A DNA stretch of 64,000 bases. Source: Blastopirellula retiformator. Its GTDB lineage: Bacteria; Planctomycetota; Planctomycetia; Pirellulales; Pirellulaceae. The notes beneath the pieces were generated by a model that worked only from the letters and a program-made list of their open reading frames with translations, searched no databases and was not told the DNA's origin. Positions 15,727-54,843 of the stretch are shown piece by piece (the stretch's first letter is position 1; the number at the start of each line of letters is the position of its first letter). The translations under genes were made by a program, and so were the position numbers. The stretch is from positions 71,524 through 135,523 of the forward strand of contig NZ_SJPF01000002.1 in assembly GCF_007859755.1 (NCBI RefSeq). Direction: 5' to 3'.

Positions 15727-16240
15727 GCGGGACGTTAGCGCTGCGCTCTTGCGCTCCGAAAAACGCAACCGCCGTGCTTGTTGTACAGACATGCTTGTCG
15801 TTTCCTGCGACATCAACGTTGGTTCGCGACTTCGTTGCGATACCATTTTCGCGCAAAGGCGCGACTTTTGCCCGCGTTATCGCGAAAGCGCGCCATTTGA
15901 TCGCAATGGCACAGGATTTGTACATGGCTGGGCATCGTACCTGAGTGAACAGGTCGACTCTGGATGTGGTATTCGGGGACCTGGCGAACGTTCTGGACTT
16001 AGGAAGCGTTCGCCAAGCCTTGGACCGTTTCGCGTGATTCGCGTTACGGCGCCATCGCCAACGGTTTCATCTCGTCTGGGATGAGGAATACCGAGTTGGT
16101 TCTACCTCGACAACAGCTTGCCAGCGATCGCCATTTTTCACCGCCGTCGTCGCTTCGAGATTTTCAAGCGGCCTGACGTTCGCCAAGGTGGAAACGCATC
16201 GCCAGCCCGAAAGCTCCGGAGTATCGTTCCCCTAGATTTG
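15727..16240. other. Intergenic region downstream of pnkp
   Basis: No gene recognised. One inverted repeat is visible (TGGCGAACG at 15982-15990 and CGTTCGCCA at 16007-16015), perfect over 9 bp with a 16-base loop and no T-run. The promoter of the DUF1559 block should lie here. The prepilin gene frame extends upstream to 16118, but the added residues are Arg-rich and unlike the family. Confidence 0.45.
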
Positions 16241-17236
16241 ATGTGCGGAGAAAAGTCATTGGTTAGTTCTATCTCTTGGAAGCGTGGTCGAAACGGCTTT
16301 ACGCTTGTTGAATTGCTGGTCGTGATCGCCATTATCGGCGTCTTGATCGCTCTCTTGTTGCCGGCGGTACAGCAAGCGCGCGAAGCGGCGAGGCGGATGC
16401 AGTGCTCCAATAATTTGCGTCAGCTTGGACTGGCGTGTCATAATTATCACGACACGCATAAGAAATTTCCGCCGGGCCGACTTGCCTATGACGGAATGAA
16501 CTCGTCCGGTTCGTCCACCAAAATCGTTACCGGTTTTGTGGGTATGCTGCTGCCGTTTATCGAGCAAGGAAACTTGGGGAACCTGTATGATTCTCGGTAT
16601 GGGTTCGATGACATCGTCAATCGACCAGCTGCCCAAACCGGCGTCGAGATACTCCTTTGCCCCTCGGCGCCCGGCGATCGCCTGATGCCGCTCTATGCCG
16701 GCTGGAATCAAGGCTGGACGACCGACGTGACGATGCTCGATTCGGCGCAAACCGGGTACGCAACTGATTATCAGGGTATTCGCGCCTTGCACTATTGTGA
16801 TCCGGCTACCGGAACGAAAACCGACATCCGCGAGGTGGGCATCCTTACCGAAACGAAGTCGACGCGTTTCGCCGATATCACGGACGGCACCAGCAATACG
16901 ATCATGTTCTTCGAAATGGCGGGGAAACCCGAGCAGTGGCGGCTTGGTAAGACGATCGAGGTGACCAACGCCCAATTCTACGGCTATGGGCCATGGTCTG
17001 GTAACAATGCGGTGATGATTTATAACTGGAATGCCGATGGCACGGCCAAGGGGCAGGATGACAGTTATCGCTATATCAACGTCGACAACGAGGCGAGCCC
17101 CTACAGTTTTCATCCAGGAATCGTCAATGTCATGTTGGCGGACGGCTCGACGCGATCGATCCCGGAAACGATCGAAACGCAGACTTTCCTGAATTTGTGC
17201 GATCGACGCGACGGTCAGGTGTTGGGCGAATACTAA
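16241..17236 (+). CDS. DUF1559 prepilin-like secreted protein
   Basis: A planctomycete DUF1559 (SBP_bac_10-type) protein of about 331 residues. The N-terminus carries a canonical class III prepilin/pseudopilin signal, NGFTLVELLVVIAIIG, followed by the family hallmark LLPAVQQAREAARRMQC and NNLRQLGLACHNYHD. The C-terminal half has the typical FADITDGTSNTIMFFEMAG and SFHPGIVNVMLADGS motifs. Expected location is the cell envelope after prepilin-peptidase cleavage; the function of the family is unknown. The start is uncertain: the ATG at 16241 and a TTG at 16259 (with GGAG upstream) both keep the signal intact. The stop codon TAA lies inside a repeat terminus (CTAACAGTCCG). Confidence 0.88.
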   Translation: MCGEKSLVSSISWKRGRNGFTLVELLVVIAIIGVLIALLLPAVQQAREAARRMQCSNNLRQLGLACHNYHDTHKKFPPGRLAYDGMNSSGSSTKIVTGFVGMLLPFIEQGNLGNLYDSRYGFDDIVNRPAAQTGVEILLCPSAPGDRLMPLYAGWNQGWTTDVTMLDSAQTGYATDYQGIRALHYCDPATGTKTDIREVGILTETKSTRFADITDGTSNTIMFFEMAGKPEQWRLGKTIEVTNAQFYGYGPWSGNNAVMIYNWNADGTAKGQDDSYRYINVDNEASPYSFHPGIVNVMLADGSTRSIPETIETQTFLNLCDRRDGQVLGEY

Positions 17237-17267
17237 CAGTCCGTTGATTTTCTCAACAGGCAGCTAA
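17233..17267 (+). repeat. Short form of the stop-codon repeat element
   Basis: This 35-bp sequence begins CTAACAGTCCGTTGATTTTC and ends CAACAGGCAGCTAA. The first part matches one end of the 140-157 bp elements at 48584-48740 and 53222-53361, and the last part matches the opposite end of the 48584 copy. It looks like an internally deleted version. The TAA is the stop codon of the DUF1559 gene. Confidence 0.75.
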
Positions 17268-48390: not shown

Positions 48391-48583
48391 GTCTTTCCTG
48401 AATAACGTAGCGTGAACGAATTGGGGCCGCTGTGGGCGACGCAAAAGAGGCCAGAAACCCTTCTAGTCTCGTCAGTAAGCAATAGCGAAACGACCAATAT
48501 AGCCGATTATAGGCCACTCCGCCTAGACCTATCTCAAGAATATTGAACGCTTTACGAAAAGCTTACGCCGATTCCTGAGGCCT

Positions 48584-48740
48584 TTAGCTGCCTGTTGAAA
48601 AATGCCTCGTGACATTTTCCAACCTCGCCAGGCTCAGAGCATAGCTCTTCGCGGCTCGCAAAATAACGACTTACGTCGTTATTTTGGGATCGCATCTGTG
48701 CGATCACGCAGTCCGTCGAGAAAATCAACCGGACTGTTAG
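48584..48740. repeat. Stop-codon repeat element, long copy A
   Basis: This 157-bp element, read on the minus strand, begins CTAACAGTCCGGTTGATTTT and ends CAACAGGCAGCTAA. Inside are hairpins: CAGTCCG with CGGACTG; GATCGCA with TGCGATC; AAAATAACGAC with GTCGTTATTTT (perfect, 11 bp); a small AGAGC/GCTCT hairpin; and an AAATG/CATTT stem. It shares about 140 bp with 53222-53361. Its TAA is the stop codon of the SET-domain gene. It is non-coding. Confidence 0.85.
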
Positions 48741-49231
48741 GCTGGCATCGCCGAAGCGTCGCCGTTGTCCGTAAGTCCTTTAGGTGTAGGATTTTGCGGC
48801 GGATTTAGCAGGTTCAGCTCTTCTGGGTCGACAATCCACCCCCGACATTGGCTCGCGCCGCACCCGCACGGGATCGCCGCATTGGCCGGCCAGGCGTAGT
48901 CGATCGTCAGTTGATCCCCCATGGCGATTGGGCGGATCGTTTCGACCCAGATCTCGGCCGGCTGCTCGTCCTCTTCGTGATAGACCAGGCAGCAGTTCGG
49001 TTCGCAGCTGTGGTTCAGATAGCGGAATGGTTCGCCCGGTTCCAGCGAGAACGTTCCGCCCAGATCGATGCAGTAGCTGCTGGAGTAATGCTCGTCGTCG
49101 ATCACCTCGCCGGTGACCATCGCGAGGAGCGTTCGCTTACGAAAAGCGCGAGCCGCAAACAAACCCTTTCCATAGGGAGTGTCGCCTACCTGAAACAGAT
49201 TGTCCAAGAACTTCGTCCTGTTGCTGTGCAT
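48737..49231 (-). CDS. SET-domain protein (putative lysine methyltransferase)
   Basis: A 164-residue compact SET protein. The SET core shows as GKGLFAARAFRKRTLLAMVTG, the pseudo-knot motifs as RYLNHSCEPNC (the NHSCxPNC hallmark) and GDQLTIDYAW (catalytic Tyr), and a cysteine-rich post-SET as CGCGASQCRGWI that can bind zinc with the preceding cysteine. Bacterial SET proteins methylate lysines of ribosomal, DNA-associated or host proteins; the substrate is unknown. The ATG at 49231 is chosen because upstream residues (to 49351) are not SET-like. The stop codon is provided by the repeat element at 48584-48740. Confidence 0.88.
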   Translation of the reverse strand: MHSNRTKFLDNLFQVGDTPYGKGLFAARAFRKRTLLAMVTGEVIDDEHYSSSYCIDLGGTFSLEPGEPFRYLNHSCEPNCCLVYHEEDEQPAEIWVETIRPIAMGDQLTIDYAWPANAAIPCGCGASQCRGWIVDPEELNLLNPPQNPTPKGLTDNGDASAMPA

Positions 49232-49308
49232 TTGGAAATCAAAACGTTGACTCCATGCTAACCAGCAACGTGATTTCGGGAAGGGGCGTTGACGATCGCG
49301 GCGGTGGA

Positions 49309-52300
49309 TTAGAACGGCGCGTAGTCGCCGTTCCGGCGCAACAGCCGCCATTGGTTTTCATACTTCTGCAGAAAGTCCCAACCCAGTTCGCCGTAAATGT
49401 CAGACCGCTTCTTGTAGAGGATCAACTTGGTCGGCTCTCGCTTGATCAGCTTGTTGAGCAGCTCCAGCGCTTCCCCCTGACGGTCCATGCGTCGCAAGCG
49501 GCGATCATGCACCAAGGCGTATTTCTCTTCGGTCGTATCGACCCAACTGGCGAGCTGCTGATAGGTCTTTTCGAACAGCTCCTCCCGTTTCTCGGGATCA
49601 GCGGGGCTCTTTTTGATATTGGGATCAGTTTCGTCGGGCAAGTCCATGTAGGCGATCGCGCGACACTTGCGATACAGCGCGTCGGTCAGAATGTCGCGCT
49701 GCTCGTTCATCTCGCGGCTGCGCTCTTTTTCTTCGTCGGTCTTGGGGTCATGTTTGCGACCGAAGTAGCGAGCCAGTTTGTTCTGCGAAATCTGCGCGAT
49801 CACCTTGTCGGCCGCCTTCACGATTTGCGGTAGATGCTGCTTGCGGTCATCGCTATCGAGCATGTGGAGACGCGCCGTCAACACTTCCAAATTGTTGGGA
49901 CTTTCTTCCAACAATTTTTCGGCCAGTTGGTGGAACGGCTCTTTGTCTTTCATTTTCGCCAAGACGCCCAGCTCGGCCACCTGCAGATCAAACAGCTTTT
50001 CTTCGAGCGTCTTCTCCTTCGGCTTGTCGCTAGAAGAGGTAGATTCTTTGGGCGCCGGCGGAGGGGGAAGATAGATCAGGTCGAACCCGCCGGGGCGACG
50101 GCCTGCGCCCGCCACATCCTTCTGCTCGGCGCCAAAGTAGATCTTGCCCAACAGGCGATCACGCGGGCCGATCGTCTTGGGCAAGGCACTTTCGGAAGGA
50201 CGGCCCAGGTAAAACGCTTCCAGTTCGCCGTCGGCGATTCGCTGGCTGGTCAGTCGGCCTGATCCGCTCATCACTTGATCAAAGCTTCGCCGCACCGGCA
50301 GCGCCGCTTTCGACTTCAGATCTTGATCGAGGAAGATCGGCATCCCTTCCAGCTTTTCGAGCGACTCACGATCGAAATGCCGCATGAAGAGCCGCAGCGT
50401 GTAGTCCCCTTTCGGCAGCTTGGCCGAACGTCCCGAGACGCCAACCCCCATCTGCCGCTTGTTCTTGTCGTAAATCATCCAGAGTCGGCCTGACCAGATC
50501 TCGAAGGCGGAGTCGTCCGACATCACCGACGGCCGCGGCTTCACTTTGCCCGCTTCCGGCATTGAAAATTCGTACGTCAGCGTCAACGCGTAGTTGCGTC
50601 GCTCTTTCGGCAGCAGATCGCGTTCGGCCGACAGTGGCGTAATCTCCGACCTCTTCGCTTCGATCACCCGGCGCCAGGTCGATAGCTCCGCTTTCGGCCC
50701 TAGATGCTCTAGGCCGAACGCCCCGATCACTTCGACTCGCTTGGCGTAGTCGACCCCGTCAAAGACAAGCGTCTGATTGATCGGATCGAGCGAATGGAAC
50801 GTTAGTTGGCAGTCGAAGTCGGCATCCCCCAGGCTGTTCCAGCAGTGGGCCAGGCAGACTTCCAGCGTGCGCCCTTCGGCGACCGGGAAGCTGACGTTTT
50901 TGACTTCCCCTTCGACGAATCGCATGTAAGACCGCTCTTCGACGTTGCGGCTATCCTCTTGCGGCAGCAACTGCTTGGTATGGGCGATCATCAGCCGCGA
51001 TCCGTCGAACTGGCCGGCGGTGATTTTCAGATCGGCCCAAGTGGCGCCGACCGGAACCTGAATAAAATGGCGCTCGACTTGGCCGGCGGTCGATTTCAGC
51101 TTCTCTTGCCAGCTGTTTTTCGACTTCAGTTTGACCGTTTGCGTCACCGTGATCGGCAGACGAAAGAGGGCGCCGGCGGCCTGATTGTCGGCATCGTAAC
51201 CGCGGATCTCGGTGAAGTGGGCGCCCGGCGGCAGCACCGTCGGATCGACTTCAATTTCAAAGTCGCGGCCGCCATACGCCAGGAAGAAGACCTCGGGCGT
51301 TTTGACCCAGTCGGCGTCGCACTCTAGGCGAACCTTCATGTCGAACGACGACTTGTCGGCGCTGGCGACATCCTCCGGAAAGAGCGGCTCGACCTCGATT
51401 TTCGCCTGCAGGGTGGTCGCCAGGTCATCCGCCTCACGCAAGTAGATGCCGCGATCATTGTTGCGTGACGTCACTTTCACGTCGTAGTGCAGACGGGCGT
51501 CGATCTGCTCGGCATGTTCGGCCAACCAATCGTAGGCGGCGTCAACTTGCAACAGACCCTGCCCCATCGCAAACGGGCTACCATCTTGCAGCGCGCGGGC
51601 GCTGTTCTGGATCGCTCGCTTCACCAAGGTGGGGGAATACGGGATCTCGTCCTGCTTCAGCGCTGAGACGAGCATCGCCAGGCCGCCGCAAACGTTGGGA
51701 GACGACATCGACGTGCCGTTCATCAATTGCTTGGGAGTCAGCGCCCATTGCGACACCGGAGCGATCGCGCCGCCGGGAGCACAAATGTCGACCCCCAGGT
51801 CACCATCGGAAGTTGGCCCGCGGGAACTCCACGTGTAGGGTAATTCCTCCAGCTTGTCGCGGAGCGAATAGCTGACCTCGGCCAGCTCGGGCGAAACATA
51901 GGCGCCGACGCCGATGATCGACGTGGTCGTTCCGCCGGGAGCGGTGACCGTGGTGAGCGCCGGGCCGTCATTGCCGGCGCTGGCGACCCAAATGATGCCA
52001 TGTTTGTAAACGATCTCGTTCTGCAGGTCGGTCAGCGGGCCATGGTTGGGAATCGGCGCCGCTCCGCCGTAGCTCATGTTGATCAGGTCGACCTTGTTTT
52101 CGATCGCGGCCAGCATGCCGCGGGTTTTGCCGGTCCCCAGCGAGTTGGAACCCACCCGCGTATCGCCAATCTTGACCGCCACAATCTGGGCGCCCGGGGC
52201 GATGCCGTTTTGCTCGGGGTGATCAGGATGGTAGGCGGCGATGATGCCGGCCACGTGGGTGCCATGCGTGCCGCAGTCAGTCACGACCGAGAGCAGGTTC

Positions 52301-53100
52301 CCTTTGTCGTAGATGTTCAGAGCGTAGTTGAGCAGCCCCTCGTCGTCGAAGGTGGCGTATTGCCGTTTGGCCCGGTAGTTGGTCATCAACTTCTCGTCGG
52401 CCAGGTCGCCATCTTCGTCGGTGTCGAGGACCGCCCGCCACGCTTTGCCGTCGTTAAAGACGACGCAGTCGTAGATCGGGCCGGGATCATCCCAGGCGCC
52501 ATGCGCTTTGGCCAGTTCCTTCTGCCGCGTCTTCAGCTCGTCGAGTTCTTCTTGTTGTTCGTCGCTGGGCTTGGGATGGGCCGACTCGAACGCGACGATT
52601 TCGTCGCTCAGTTTGGCTTGTTGGGCGCGGAACGCTTCGTCCCACTCTTTCTTGCGTTCGGTCTTCAAACGGCGGACGAGGGCGCCAGGGAATAGATCGT
52701 AGCCCCGCTTCATGCCCAGGTGAAATTTGCCGCTGGGGTTCTTCCACTTCTTGGGGATCGTCAGCTCGCGGCCGGTCAGACCTTCCAGCACGCCCTCGTT
52801 CGCTTCGCGAACGGTCGAGGTATCGACGTCGCCGCTGCCCGAGGCGTCGACCATGTCGACAATCTTGGGCCGGCCGTCGGGGGTCTCTTGCAAACCGACG
52901 GCGCCAGGGTCGACGCCGGTATCAAAGACGGCGACCGTCACGCCGCGGCCGTCCGCTTCGGCATGGTCTTTCAAGAAGCGGATGGCGCCGATTTCCGACT
53001 TCGGCAACAGGCCGTAGTCGGGGAAGGTCGCGTCTTCGCCGTAGGCGGCGACCGTGAGAACCGAGCCGAGGATGACCGGAAGGAGAGAGCGCAGAAGCAT
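49309..53100 (-). CDS. Large subtilisin-family protease, tripeptidyl-peptidase II-like
   Basis: A 1263-residue secreted protease with a signal peptide (about 1-21, LPVILGSVLTVAAYG). Catalytic residues are Asp60 (AVFDTGVDPG), His279 (CGTHGTHVAG) and Ser464 (NGTSMSSPN). A large insert (about 85-255) between Asp and His, plus the motifs KIVDMVDASGSGDVDT and LTIPKKWKNPSGKFHLGMK, match eukaryotic tripeptidyl-peptidase II unusually well. The long C-terminal region (about 480-1263) also matches TPPII size. Eukaryotic TPPII is cytosolic and forms large spindles, whereas this one is exported. The stop codon is 77 bases from the SET gene start in the same direction. Confidence 0.9.
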   Translation of the reverse strand: MLLRSLLPVILGSVLTVAAYGEDATFPDYGLLPKSEIGAIRFLKDHAEADGRGVTVAVFDTGVDPGAVGLQETPDGRPKIVDMVDASGSGDVDTSTVREANEGVLEGLTGRELTIPKKWKNPSGKFHLGMKRGYDLFPGALVRRLKTERKKEWDEAFRAQQAKLSDEIVAFESAHPKPSDEQQEELDELKTRQKELAKAHGAWDDPGPIYDCVVFNDGKAWRAVLDTDEDGDLADEKLMTNYRAKRQYATFDDEGLLNYALNIYDKGNLLSVVTDCGTHGTHVAGIIAAYHPDHPEQNGIAPGAQIVAVKIGDTRVGSNSLGTGKTRGMLAAIENKVDLINMSYGGAAPIPNHGPLTDLQNEIVYKHGIIWVASAGNDGPALTTVTAPGGTTTSIIGVGAYVSPELAEVSYSLRDKLEELPYTWSSRGPTSDGDLGVDICAPGGAIAPVSQWALTPKQLMNGTSMSSPNVCGGLAMLVSALKQDEIPYSPTLVKRAIQNSARALQDGSPFAMGQGLLQVDAAYDWLAEHAEQIDARLHYDVKVTSRNNDRGIYLREADDLATTLQAKIEVEPLFPEDVASADKSSFDMKVRLECDADWVKTPEVFFLAYGGRDFEIEVDPTVLPPGAHFTEIRGYDADNQAAGALFRLPITVTQTVKLKSKNSWQEKLKSTAGQVERHFIQVPVGATWADLKITAGQFDGSRLMIAHTKQLLPQEDSRNVEERSYMRFVEGEVKNVSFPVAEGRTLEVCLAHCWNSLGDADFDCQLTFHSLDPINQTLVFDGVDYAKRVEVIGAFGLEHLGPKAELSTWRRVIEAKRSEITPLSAERDLLPKERRNYALTLTYEFSMPEAGKVKPRPSVMSDDSAFEIWSGRLWMIYDKNKRQMGVGVSGRSAKLPKGDYTLRLFMRHFDRESLEKLEGMPIFLDQDLKSKAALPVRRSFDQVMSGSGRLTSQRIADGELEAFYLGRPSESALPKTIGPRDRLLGKIYFGAEQKDVAGAGRRPGGFDLIYLPPPPAPKESTSSSDKPKEKTLEEKLFDLQVAELGVLAKMKDKEPFHQLAEKLLEESPNNLEVLTARLHMLDSDDRKQHLPQIVKAADKVIAQISQNKLARYFGRKHDPKTDEEKERSREMNEQRDILTDALYRKCRAIAYMDLPDETDPNIKKSPADPEKREELFEKTYQQLASWVDTTEEKYALVHDRRLRRMDRQGEALELLNKLIKREPTKLILYKKRSDIYGELGWDFLQKYENQWRLLRRNGDYAPF

Positions 53101-53221
53101 GGTGATCGATCGGTTGGAGAGGTAGGATTGTAGCGATGATGTCGGGCGGGGCCTTTCTATCTTACCTTAGTCAGCGTGACCGAGCGGAGGTTCATCCGAA
53201 AATCTGCGGTCGCCATCCCAT

Positions 53222-53361
53222 AAATGCCCTCGTGGCATTTTCCAGCCTCGCCAGGCTCAGAGCGTAGCTCTTCGCGGCTCGCAAAATAACGACTTACGTC
53301 GCTATTTTGGGATCGCATCCATGCGATCACGCAGTCCGTCGAGAAAATCAACGGACTGTTA
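53222..53361. repeat. Stop-codon repeat element, long copy B
   Basis: This 140-bp element is nearly identical to 48599-48740. Hairpin changes are mostly pair-preserving: here CAGTCCGT pairs with ACGGACTG, GATCGCAT with ATGCGATC, and AAATGCC with GGCATTT, while one A-C mismatch appears in the AAAATAACGAC stem. Its TAA (read on the minus strand) is the stop of the photolyase gene. The far-end tail CAACAGGCAGCTAA present in copy A is missing. Confidence 0.85.
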
Positions 53362-54843
53362 GCGGAAAAGTCGATTAGGCGCGTAGTTTTCGATATACCG
53401 CCGAACCGGGATCTTCTTTGCCGTATTTTCGCTGCTCATGTAACGAATTTTGCCAAAGATCTTCCGCTCGGGACCCCACGCCCGATCGTACCGCCCCAGG
53501 CACCAAAAAATTCCGCTGTAAGAATTTGGGTTCCGCCCGTCGACCGTGTACTTGTTGTTGAGCTTGATCAGCACGTCGAGCGCTTCGCGCGGCGTCGGCG
53601 ACCACTCCAAGATTTTCTTGGCCCACAGCATCCGCAGATAGTTGTGCATCCGCCCTTCGACGACCAATTGCGTTTGGGCGGCGTTCCAAAGCTCGTCGTA
53701 GGTTTTCCCCTTCGCCAGTTGCTCGAGGTTGTAGAGGTGAGGGCGTTTGTCGTTCGCGTGATCGGCCAGCGTTTTTTGGGCCCAGTCGGGCAGCGATTCG
53801 TAGCGGTCATAGTTCGACTCGCGCGAGCACATGTTGTAGCCGATCTCGCGCCAAGTGATCAGTTCGTCCAGGAAGCTCTCGGCGCTCGGCGACATGTTCC
53901 ACCACCCTTCCCGCGAGCCGGTCGCCTTGCCGCTCAGCTTTGAGACGTCCCAATTCTCTTGCGCGGTCAGCCGCGAGAAAATGTCATGGGTCGAGATATG
54001 GCCGAAATGGAGATAAGGGGACAGTCCGCTGGCGACGTCGGCCTCGGGGGAGTTCCGCTTGTCGCCGTAGCGGGCAAGCTTGCTCTCAAGAAACGTCGCG
54101 AGCGTACGCTCGGCGGCGGCCGCTCCGCCTACAAGAACCGAATCACGCACCGATTGGTCGATCGGCAGGTCATCGAGCGCACTGGAGTTGGCGGACAGCA
54201 ACTCTTTGGACGCCGGCGGGTATTTCTTCTGAATTTCGGCTATCAGATTCGCCTGGGCCTTAGGGATCTTGGCGGCGGCGAGCGGATCTTCGTCGGGAAA
54301 CTCCGGCAGGTAGTCGCGCAGATTGTGGTGCAGAAAGCGGCGGAAGCTGTGAGCGACGGTGAACGTCTTGTCGCCGGCCCGCATCGGCAACAGGCCGTTC
54401 GAGTCAATTGACTCTAGCTTGACGTCGACCATCCGCGACACGGCCCGCACCATCCGCGCTAGGAAGAAACAGGGAAAGTCGTCAGTCACAATCACGCACG
54501 ATTGTTTGGCCAGGGCGGCGAGCAGCCCGTGATCGGCGTCTTTGTTGGGCTCAACGTACGGATAATAGAGGGCCGGCGTGGGCTTAATCGCCTCGGCATT
54601 GTCTCCCATCCCCTGCAGCGCAAATCTGTGCAACCGGCGGCTGGCCCACGGATAGTCGATCCGCAGCGCCTCCAAAATCACCAGCGGCTTCCTCAAGTCC
54701 GCCGCCCAGTCGACCGCCCGCTGCAGACTGAAATTGAAGCGCGTTCGCCGATTGGCGATCATCCAATAGAGAACGAAATCCCCATTGTCATTGATGGGAG
54801 CGTCGTTGCAGTTAGTCAGGCGTAGCTTCGGAAAAACTTCCAC
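53359..54843 (-). CDS. phrB: Class II deoxyribodipyrimidine photolyase
   Basis: A 494-residue class II CPD photolyase. It uses FADH and blue light to split cyclobutane pyrimidine dimers in DNA. Class II hallmarks are the early YWMIANRRTRFNFSLQRAVDWA, the FAD-binding block with SPYLHFGHIS, the ITWREIGYNMC segment, and the C-terminal LRMLWAKKILEWSPTPREAL with NPNSYSGIFWCLGRYDRAWGPERKIFG. No membrane or signal sequence. It starts 36 bases downstream of the TIGR01777 gene in the same direction, so they are probably co-transcribed. The stop codon TAA lies in the end of repeat copy B. Confidence 0.93.
   Translation of the reverse strand: MEVFPKLRLTNCNDAPINDNGDFVLYWMIANRRTRFNFSLQRAVDWAADLRKPLVILEALRIDYPWASRRLHRFALQGMGDNAEAIKPTPALYYPYVEPNKDADHGLLAALAKQSCVIVTDDFPCFFLARMVRAVSRMVDVKLESIDSNGLLPMRAGDKTFTVAHSFRRFLHHNLRDYLPEFPDEDPLAAAKIPKAQANLIAEIQKKYPPASKELLSANSSALDDLPIDQSVRDSVLVGGAAAAERTLATFLESKLARYGDKRNSPEADVASGLSPYLHFGHISTHDIFSRLTAQENWDVSKLSGKATGSREGWWNMSPSAESFLDELITWREIGYNMCSRESNYDRYESLPDWAQKTLADHANDKRPHLYNLEQLAKGKTYDELWNAAQTQLVVEGRMHNYLRMLWAKKILEWSPTPREALDVLIKLNNKYTVDGRNPNSYSGIFWCLGRYDRAWGPERKIFGKIRYMSSENTAKKIPVRRYIENYAPNRLFR

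Follow-up and report, generated by a model that had tools for sequence, protein, structure and literature searches.

A repeat that begins at gene ends in Blastopirellula retiformator is very probably a MITE-like element inserting at YTAR

Why does a structured repeat begin exactly where three different genes end? The question is raised by a stretch of 64,000 nucleotides from Blastopirellula retiformator (contig NZ_SJPF01000002.1, positions 71,524 to 135,523; the window in what follows), in which CTAACAGTCCG has three exact matches, at 17233–17243 on the forward strand and at 48730–48740 and 53352–53362 on the reverse strand. The original prediction, made from the sequence of the window, was that the TAA at the left end of the repeat is in each case the stop codon of the neighbouring gene (a DUF1559 gene, a SET-domain gene and a photolyase gene), and this observation was confirmed for all three copies. 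Two explanations had been offered, a mobile element that targets gene ends or a shared module at the 3' end of genes. It was found that the repeat is very probably a non-autonomous element resembling miniature inverted-repeat transposable elements (MITEs), typically 149 bp in length, which inserts at YTAR, so that the stop codon is part of the host target. The 11-mer by itself is not very rare, as 7 of 100 shuffles contained at least three matches at one mismatch. The weight of the window pattern lies in the long copies and in the genome-wide family, not in the 11-mer alone.

The 6.2-Mb genome contains 331 left ends (at most two mismatches) and 395 right ends (at most one mismatch). Copies were collected in two samples. 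The tile sample consists of four 400-kb tiles and the window, 1.66 Mb in total; the targeted sample adds 68 elements that were picked, regardless of genes, among the ends listed for contigs C1 and C2, elements less than 1 kb from the end of a fetched stretch being skipped. Pairing of the ends yielded 87 elements in the tiles. Of these, 68 measure exactly 149 bp, as do 56 of the 68 paired elements of the targeted set. Another 38 ends in the tiles were unpaired, many of them at four mismatches and perhaps due to chance; apart from two window copies, such ends were kept outside the class counts given below. These two are the long window copies (48588–48736 has in its left end an inserted base, missed by the scan, and 53222–53358 is without its right end), which stand outside the duplication statistic and were added to the class counts by hand. 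The terminal inverted repeats are imperfect, with CAGTCCGTTGA... at one end and CTGCCTGTTGA... at the other. The 149-bp copies of the genome resemble one another closely (125 copies, median identity to the consensus 96.6%), and an element of this length is too short for a transposase gene.

The 4-mers that flank the element on its two sides are identical in 64 of the 87 tile pairs, while 2000 shuffles gave 14.7 on average and never more than 27. The same holds for 49 of the 68 targeted elements, which makes 113 of 155 for both samples. Read in the orientation of the element, the 64 tile duplications are CTAA (19), CTAG (16), TTAG (11), TTAA (5), ATAG (5), GTAG (4) and four single types. The logo of the target is YTAR, and the surrounding bases show little preference. 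The flanking 4-mer is thus a target-site duplication with the consensus YTAR.

The ownership of the stop codon was revealed by orthologues in three genomes of the same genus. The photolyase orthologues (74–83% identical) end at the same last residue with the stops TAA, TGA and TGA, and the SET orthologues also share their last residue, with TAG, TAG and TAA. In all six the flank follows directly after the stop and no element is present, which makes them empty sites; in G002, the nearest genome by identity, the flank by eye picks up the window sequence from beyond the element. The stop thus keeps its place where the element is absent, and the element landed behind a pre-existing stop. The claim that the first bases of the repeat supply the stop codon was therefore wrong: the YTAR 4-mer is the duplicated target, and the stop codon belongs to the host, not to the repeat. 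The suggestion of a mobile element was right, in view of the 4-bp duplications and the empty sites in relatives. The features of the window that bear on this are as follows.

16118–17236, forward strand: DUF1559 gene (PF07596, Pfam), longest open reading frame of 372 aa, which ends in the CTAA target; translation may also start later, at 16313
17233–17236, forward strand: left target-site duplication CTAA, whose TAA is the DUF1559 stop
17237–17263, forward strand: 27-bp micro form of the element, the left terminal 18 bp joined to the right terminal 9 bp
17264–17267, forward strand: right target-site duplication CTAA of the micro form
48584–48587, reverse strand: target-site duplication bordering the long copy on its right, TTAG on the forward and CTAA on the reverse strand
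48588–48736, reverse strand: full-length 149-bp element with five hairpins, left end CAGTCCG at 48736 and right end GGCAG at 48588
48737–48740, reverse strand: target-site duplication CTAA (on the reverse strand), whose TAA (48739–48737) is the stop of the SET-domain gene
48737–49351, reverse strand: SET-domain gene (PF00856, Pfam), open reading frame of 204 aa
53222–53358, reverse strand: element copy whose left end is at 53358; its right terminus is gone, and so is the second duplication
53359–53362, reverse strand: remaining target 4-mer CTAA (on the reverse strand), whose TAA is the photolyase stop
53359–54843, reverse strand: deoxyribodipyrimidine photolyase gene, open reading frame of 494 aa

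The ends first given for the repeat needed refining, the long copy being 48588–48736 inside its 4-bp duplications. The photolyase was identified by comparison with solved structures (E 2.2e-78); it has no Pfam match at 0.001. The micro form of the window is one of four exact copies in the genome (the others at C2:726812, C4:753812 and C6:56768 of the assembly, G000). Several micro forms, which consist of the termini only and are recurrent, lie between identical YTAR 4-mers; they may stem from repeated internal deletion or from movement of their own. A 43-bp element made of two right ends has CTAG on both sides (L085; C1:686328–686370 of G000).

How far the copies keep to stop codons was asked of the whole sample. 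Among 157 copies, 61 (39%) coincide exactly with a stop codon, another 92 are found between genes and four inside predicted genes. The tiles contribute 33, 53 and three of these (89 copies, that is, the 87 paired elements and the two window copies), and the targeted set 28, 39 and one (68 copies). The three-of-three placement in the window was therefore real and somewhat lucky; 58 of 154 copies remain on stops without the window's three. A majority of other copies away from stop codons had been named beforehand as evidence against the pattern, and numerically the copies elsewhere are indeed the majority (96 of 157). The shared orientation, with the same end toward the gene in all three window copies, was due to chance: of the copies at stops, 15 of 34 in the tiles and 10 of 28 in the targeted set have their left end toward the gene, or 25 left against 37 right.

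Occupancy was then related to the sites on offer. Free YTAR sites in the tiles number 2925 in genes, 1818 in intergenic DNA and 469 at stops. In the tiles, YTAR is occupied at 6.0% of stop codons (30/499), at 3.4% of sites 1–50 bp downstream of a stop (11/320), 4.8% at 51–100 bp (11/228), 3.4% at 101–200 bp, 1.05% beyond 200 bp (11/1047) and 0.07% inside genes (2/2927). The chief contrast is therefore that between the 3' ends of genes and everything else. Targeting of gene ends, as originally suggested, is weakly supported by the difference between 6.0% at stops and 3.4–4.8% at 1–100 bp downstream. A true preference of the transposase, or of a coupling with the ends of translation or transcription, for YTAR at stop codons is unlikely. 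Stops compared with all intergenic YTAR sites in the tiles gave an odds ratio of 2.77 (p 6e-5), and the tiles and targeted set together gave 1.78 (p 0.009) when the comparison was with sites no more than 100 bp downstream, 1.88 (p 0.02) at up to 50 bp and 1.79 (p 0.004) at up to 200 bp. However, the tiles alone gave 1.53 within 100 bp (p 0.16) and 1.80 within 50 bp (p 0.10), and adjustment for flank GC and motif gave 1.42 with an interval of 0.85–2.58. Sites 51–100 bp downstream are nearly as occupied as the stops themselves, the majority of copies sit elsewhere, and the loss of terminators by insertions further downstream would yield an equal excess. We read the stop-codon bias mostly as the outcome of a YTAR target that contains TAA or TAG, together with selection; a small extra preference is possible.

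The repeat is also structured: with DNA parameters, the fold of one copy is much stronger than those of its shuffles (z −6.4). It had been claimed that the differences between the long copies mostly preserve base pairing, in at least three stems. By eye, these differences lie in loops or on one side of a pair, so that no covariation can be taken from these two copies alone. Within the genome, covariation among 117 distinct copies is slight, with 12 doubly changed cells in five pairs against a shuffled mean of 6.6 cells in 2.1 pairs and a maximum of 11 in five; the window's own long copy, which carries compensating 1-base indels, was dropped from this count and from that of private variants below. 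An alignment across genomes was made from 25 sequences, of which four elements and one left end interrupted by an insertion sequence (IS) came from the genome itself and 20 from G002, G003, G037, G039 and G056. Here, 19 of 46 pairs are changed on both sides (shuffled mean 10.3) and 71 cells are doubly changed (24.1 when shuffled), none of 500 shuffles being as high in either case. Pairing is kept in 88.5% of the cells, compared with 34–46% when the partners are slid. Helix 2 is the weakest, at 67% paired, in part as some rows look misaligned there. The elements of the other genomes keep the same arrangement at 74–90% identity, and by eye four of the 20 have identical flanking 4-mers. The proposal that the RNA shape is kept thus holds between genomes, by strong cross-genome covariation. 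No Rfam family matched the element at gathering scores in the scan of the window, the sole match being a tRNA at 1957–2030.

Whom the fold serves may be judged from private variants, that is, mutations confined to one or two resident copies. The 75 private pair cells of resident copies comprise 22 G-U, 20 A-C, 29 other mismatches and four Watson-Crick pairs. States found in at least five copies are, in all but one case, Watson-Crick (45) or G-U (4). Between genomes, G-U states outnumber A-C states by 30 to 11 (p 0.004, each state counted once per genome and pair); a single strand that is read from the left to the right end should show such an excess, a double-stranded palindrome should not. 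Resident copies take up private mutations without clear regard to pairing. If these copies served the host, their private mutations should respect pairing; this is not clearly so, and the fold therefore appears to serve the element. We infer that the single-stranded fold, whether of RNA or of DNA, would be of importance to the source element or to its movement and not to the host gene. It is conceivable, as a tentative extension, that an element with an ordinary 4-bp duplication depends for its spread on a block of five hairpins folded by one particular strand, either as RNA or as single-stranded DNA. If this were true, the folded strand would be a guide, a strand bound by the transposase or the RNA of a source element, and stop codons would be safe landing sites; compensatory changes would preserve the hairpin block as long as the lineage propagates, and nothing would preserve it once a copy is resident.

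Two other accounts of the fold have to be weighed against this. A shared 3'-end module, in which the folded RNA ends, stabilises or processes the transcript of the upstream gene and is kept for that purpose, would explain the strong fold with its cross-genome covariation, the 61 copies directly at a stop codon and the slightly smaller number of private variants at paired sites. However, no terminator-like (a G+C-rich hairpin followed by a T run) or promoter-like site was found in 48540–48800, the one copy scanned, and either end may face the gene. Furthermore, the 92 intergenic copies lie away from any stop, the private mutations of resident copies do not favour pairing, and the same-genus orthologues of the SET and photolyase genes do without the element. 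The module is therefore disfavoured, chiefly by the lack of a clear pairing constraint in residents, of a terminator in the scanned copy and of an orientation rule, and we consider it very unlikely. Perfect inverted repeats can arise by template switching, and self-correction of a palindrome in this way during replication could produce covariation across genomes without any selection on the fold. Such a process fits the 19 doubly changed pairs; however, it should act on resident copies too, where only four of the 75 private pair cells are Watson-Crick replacements, and it does not predict an excess of G-U over A-C. It is an improbable source of the covariation.

The search for a mobiliser led to a nested IS. 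PF13546 (DDE_5) has no match in the genome, and among its 23 PF01609 matches the only ones enclosed by the ends of the repeat belong to nested IS4 copies. Repeat copies of 1265–1709 bp hold all or part of a 426-aa IS4-family transposase (NF033592, E 3.6e-64) with D146, D218 and E341, YREK and spacers of 71/122. This IS4 element is 1551 bp long when whole and has its own ends, CAATACYGTTCGGCACG (CAATACYG), and its own 9-bp duplication. Seven copies with both ends were found in the genome among the loci scanned. Five of them share one insertion point within hairpin 5 of the repeat and are flanked by a duplicated CCACGAGGG, in L143 with one mismatch, those in L143, L145 and L146 one way and those in L153 and L191 in the opposite orientation:

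L143, 968–2518: IS4 copy in hairpin 5
L145, 1182–2732: IS4 copy in hairpin 5
L146, 1182–2732: IS4 copy in hairpin 5
L153, 863–1969: IS4 copy in hairpin 5
L191, 2933–4105: IS4 copy in hairpin 5

The copy in L144 lies outside any repeat, with GGACGGGGG duplicated, and that in L152 has differing surroundings at its two ends; a further copy, in L082, has one end only and is located in a repeat. The IS4 element is a passenger that favours hairpin 5 of the repeat and not its parent. Its insertion at CCACGAGGG recalls insertion sequences that target repeats.

The opposite view, that the repeat is an internally deleted copy of a 1.7-kb element with an IS4 transposase and the same ends (L143 and L145), draws on the 1709-bp copies, which have both ends and YTAR duplications around a clear IS4-family transposase. 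However, the separate ends, the 9-bp duplication inside the repeat as well as in L144, and the occurrence of both orientations rule these elements out as the autonomous parent, and the repeat is present in G037 and G039, which have no match to this transposase at E 1e-40; in our reading this origin is refuted and of negligible probability. Among 60 genomes, the own one included, nine match the repeat (G035 and G049 by short and weak matches only), 11 hold the IS4 transposase at E 1e-40 and four have both. At 25 loci with relatives of the IS4 transposase, no pair of ends showed a convincing duplication by the motif of the repeat, apart from one weak 3-bp match, which is expected because the motif belongs to the repeat and not to the IS. 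Movement of a REP/REPIN-type repeat by a Y1 (RAYT) transposase via single-stranded hairpins would agree with the palindromic ends, the single-strand-like fold and the 21 Y1 transposase matches in the genome. However, clear 4-bp target duplications flank the element, and the flanking tetranucleotide changes with the site, with no fixed GTAG-like foot. Y1 transposition is not known to make target duplications, and this origin is highly improbable. The 21 matches to RAYT-like transposases suggest that the genome may contain genuine REP-type repeats as well.

Two further candidates were rejected. A PF01609 transposase of about 406 aa at ten loci (L132–L141) has a left-like terminus near two copies only, outside the shared block. 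On C3, two micro forms enclose a gene of 383 aa, which is acetyltransferase-like and not a transposase. The termini at L133:2637 and L136:1032, which resemble the left end (CAGCCYGTTGATTTTCC after ATAG or TTAG), stand beside a 1.26-kb IS present in ten copies and perhaps belong to a further relative of the repeat. Two copies of G037 (L333 and L334) form a second subfamily, in which GGGGA replaces GTTGA in the paired arms as well as at either end; this suggests that the ends co-evolved with a different transposase.

Short elements that are bounded by inverted repeats and have hairpins and target duplications are familiar from bacteria, as the excerpts of three sources show (PMC2229807, PMC6382973, PMC10969869). 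The repeat resembles the MITEs described in the first two (RUP of pneumococcus, Correia/NEMIS and MITEAba12) in being short, without a transposase gene, bounded by terminal inverted repeats and flanked by target duplications, as well as in its many copies, its stem-loops and its largely intergenic location. It differs from them, as far as these excerpts describe them, in its 4-bp YTAR duplication where theirs is TA or 9 bp and in its five successive hairpins where theirs have one stem joining the two ends, and also in that no mobilising IS was found here in about one third of the genome. The same YTAR target is reported for IS711 of Brucella, which encodes its own transposase and appears, in the part of the source available, to duplicate only TA (PMC2266754). 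A conserved 4-bp duplication is ascribed to IS701, and one of 4–5 bp with CRGT ends to ISH3, in the available text of another source (PMC2266710); the repeat shares the 4-bp duplication with IS701, and its ends CAGT (left) and CTGC (right) may be set beside CRGT. Unlike IS701 and ISH3, no transposase of these kinds is linked to the repeat, with PF13546 and PF01609 as the families sought. The nested passenger agrees with the IS4 family as outlined in the same text (PMC2266710) in its YREK, spacers of 71/122, CA ends and 9-bp duplication; it inserts into hairpin 5 of the repeat and is not its parent. Repetitive extragenic palindromic (REP) sequences, reported in Planctomycetes according to the excerpt of PMC3733652, are likewise palindromic, extragenic and of high copy number. 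In contrast to REP as characterised there, target duplications lie on both sides of the present element, and it has no fixed tetranucleotide foot. Neither this element nor MITEs at stop codons via YTAR were described among the literature matches listed, subscription literature being outside the coverage.

Several points weigh against a MITE-like element whose stop-codon bias comes from its target and whose fold serves the element. The 1.66-Mb tiles, the targeted stretches (pairs of up to 1.8 kb) and the PF01609 loci, about one third of the genome, yielded no autonomous element that has these ends. The excess at stop codons over nearby YTAR sites is 1.4–1.9-fold, with p between 0.004 and 0.16 depending on sample and comparison, and could be real targeting; genes were called with a hexamer model of our own (coverage 84–86%) and not with a standard gene finder. 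Paired sites have slightly fewer private variants (0.84 per site) than unpaired ones (1.05). The cross-genome count of G-U against A-C states leaves out helix 2 and the two outer pairs of helix 4, and the contrast of this asymmetry between and within genomes reaches p 0.07 only. Further pair types number 42 against a shuffled 38.4, with 34 of 500 shuffles as high, which is not convincing, and the covariation shuffles do not keep relatedness.

On the MITE-like reading, which we prefer, a transposase acting in trans would move the element. Its insertion into YTAR duplicates these 4 bp, as shown by the duplications, and where YTAR holds TAA or TAG, the duplicate on the side of the gene would keep the stop, so that the upstream gene stays complete and the element starts directly after it. 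Insertions inside genes are nearly all absent, presumably through selection against them, and those far from 3' ends are depleted; the survivors would in this way gather at stop codons and just downstream. The hairpins would be kept in the propagating lineage, with exceptions that are G-U rather than A-C on the left-to-right strand, while resident copies decay.

It follows that what looks like a stop-codon module can come about through a target that bears TAA or TAG together with selection against damaging insertions, which calls for caution with other repeats at gene ends. The comparison of covariation between genomes with decay within a genome offers a simple test of whether a fold serves the host or a mobile element, and this test can be applied to structured repeats of other bacteria too. 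The element is also a sizeable force on the genome of this organism, whose 6.2 Mb contain about 330 of its left ends and where some of the copies harbour a 1.55-kb IS.

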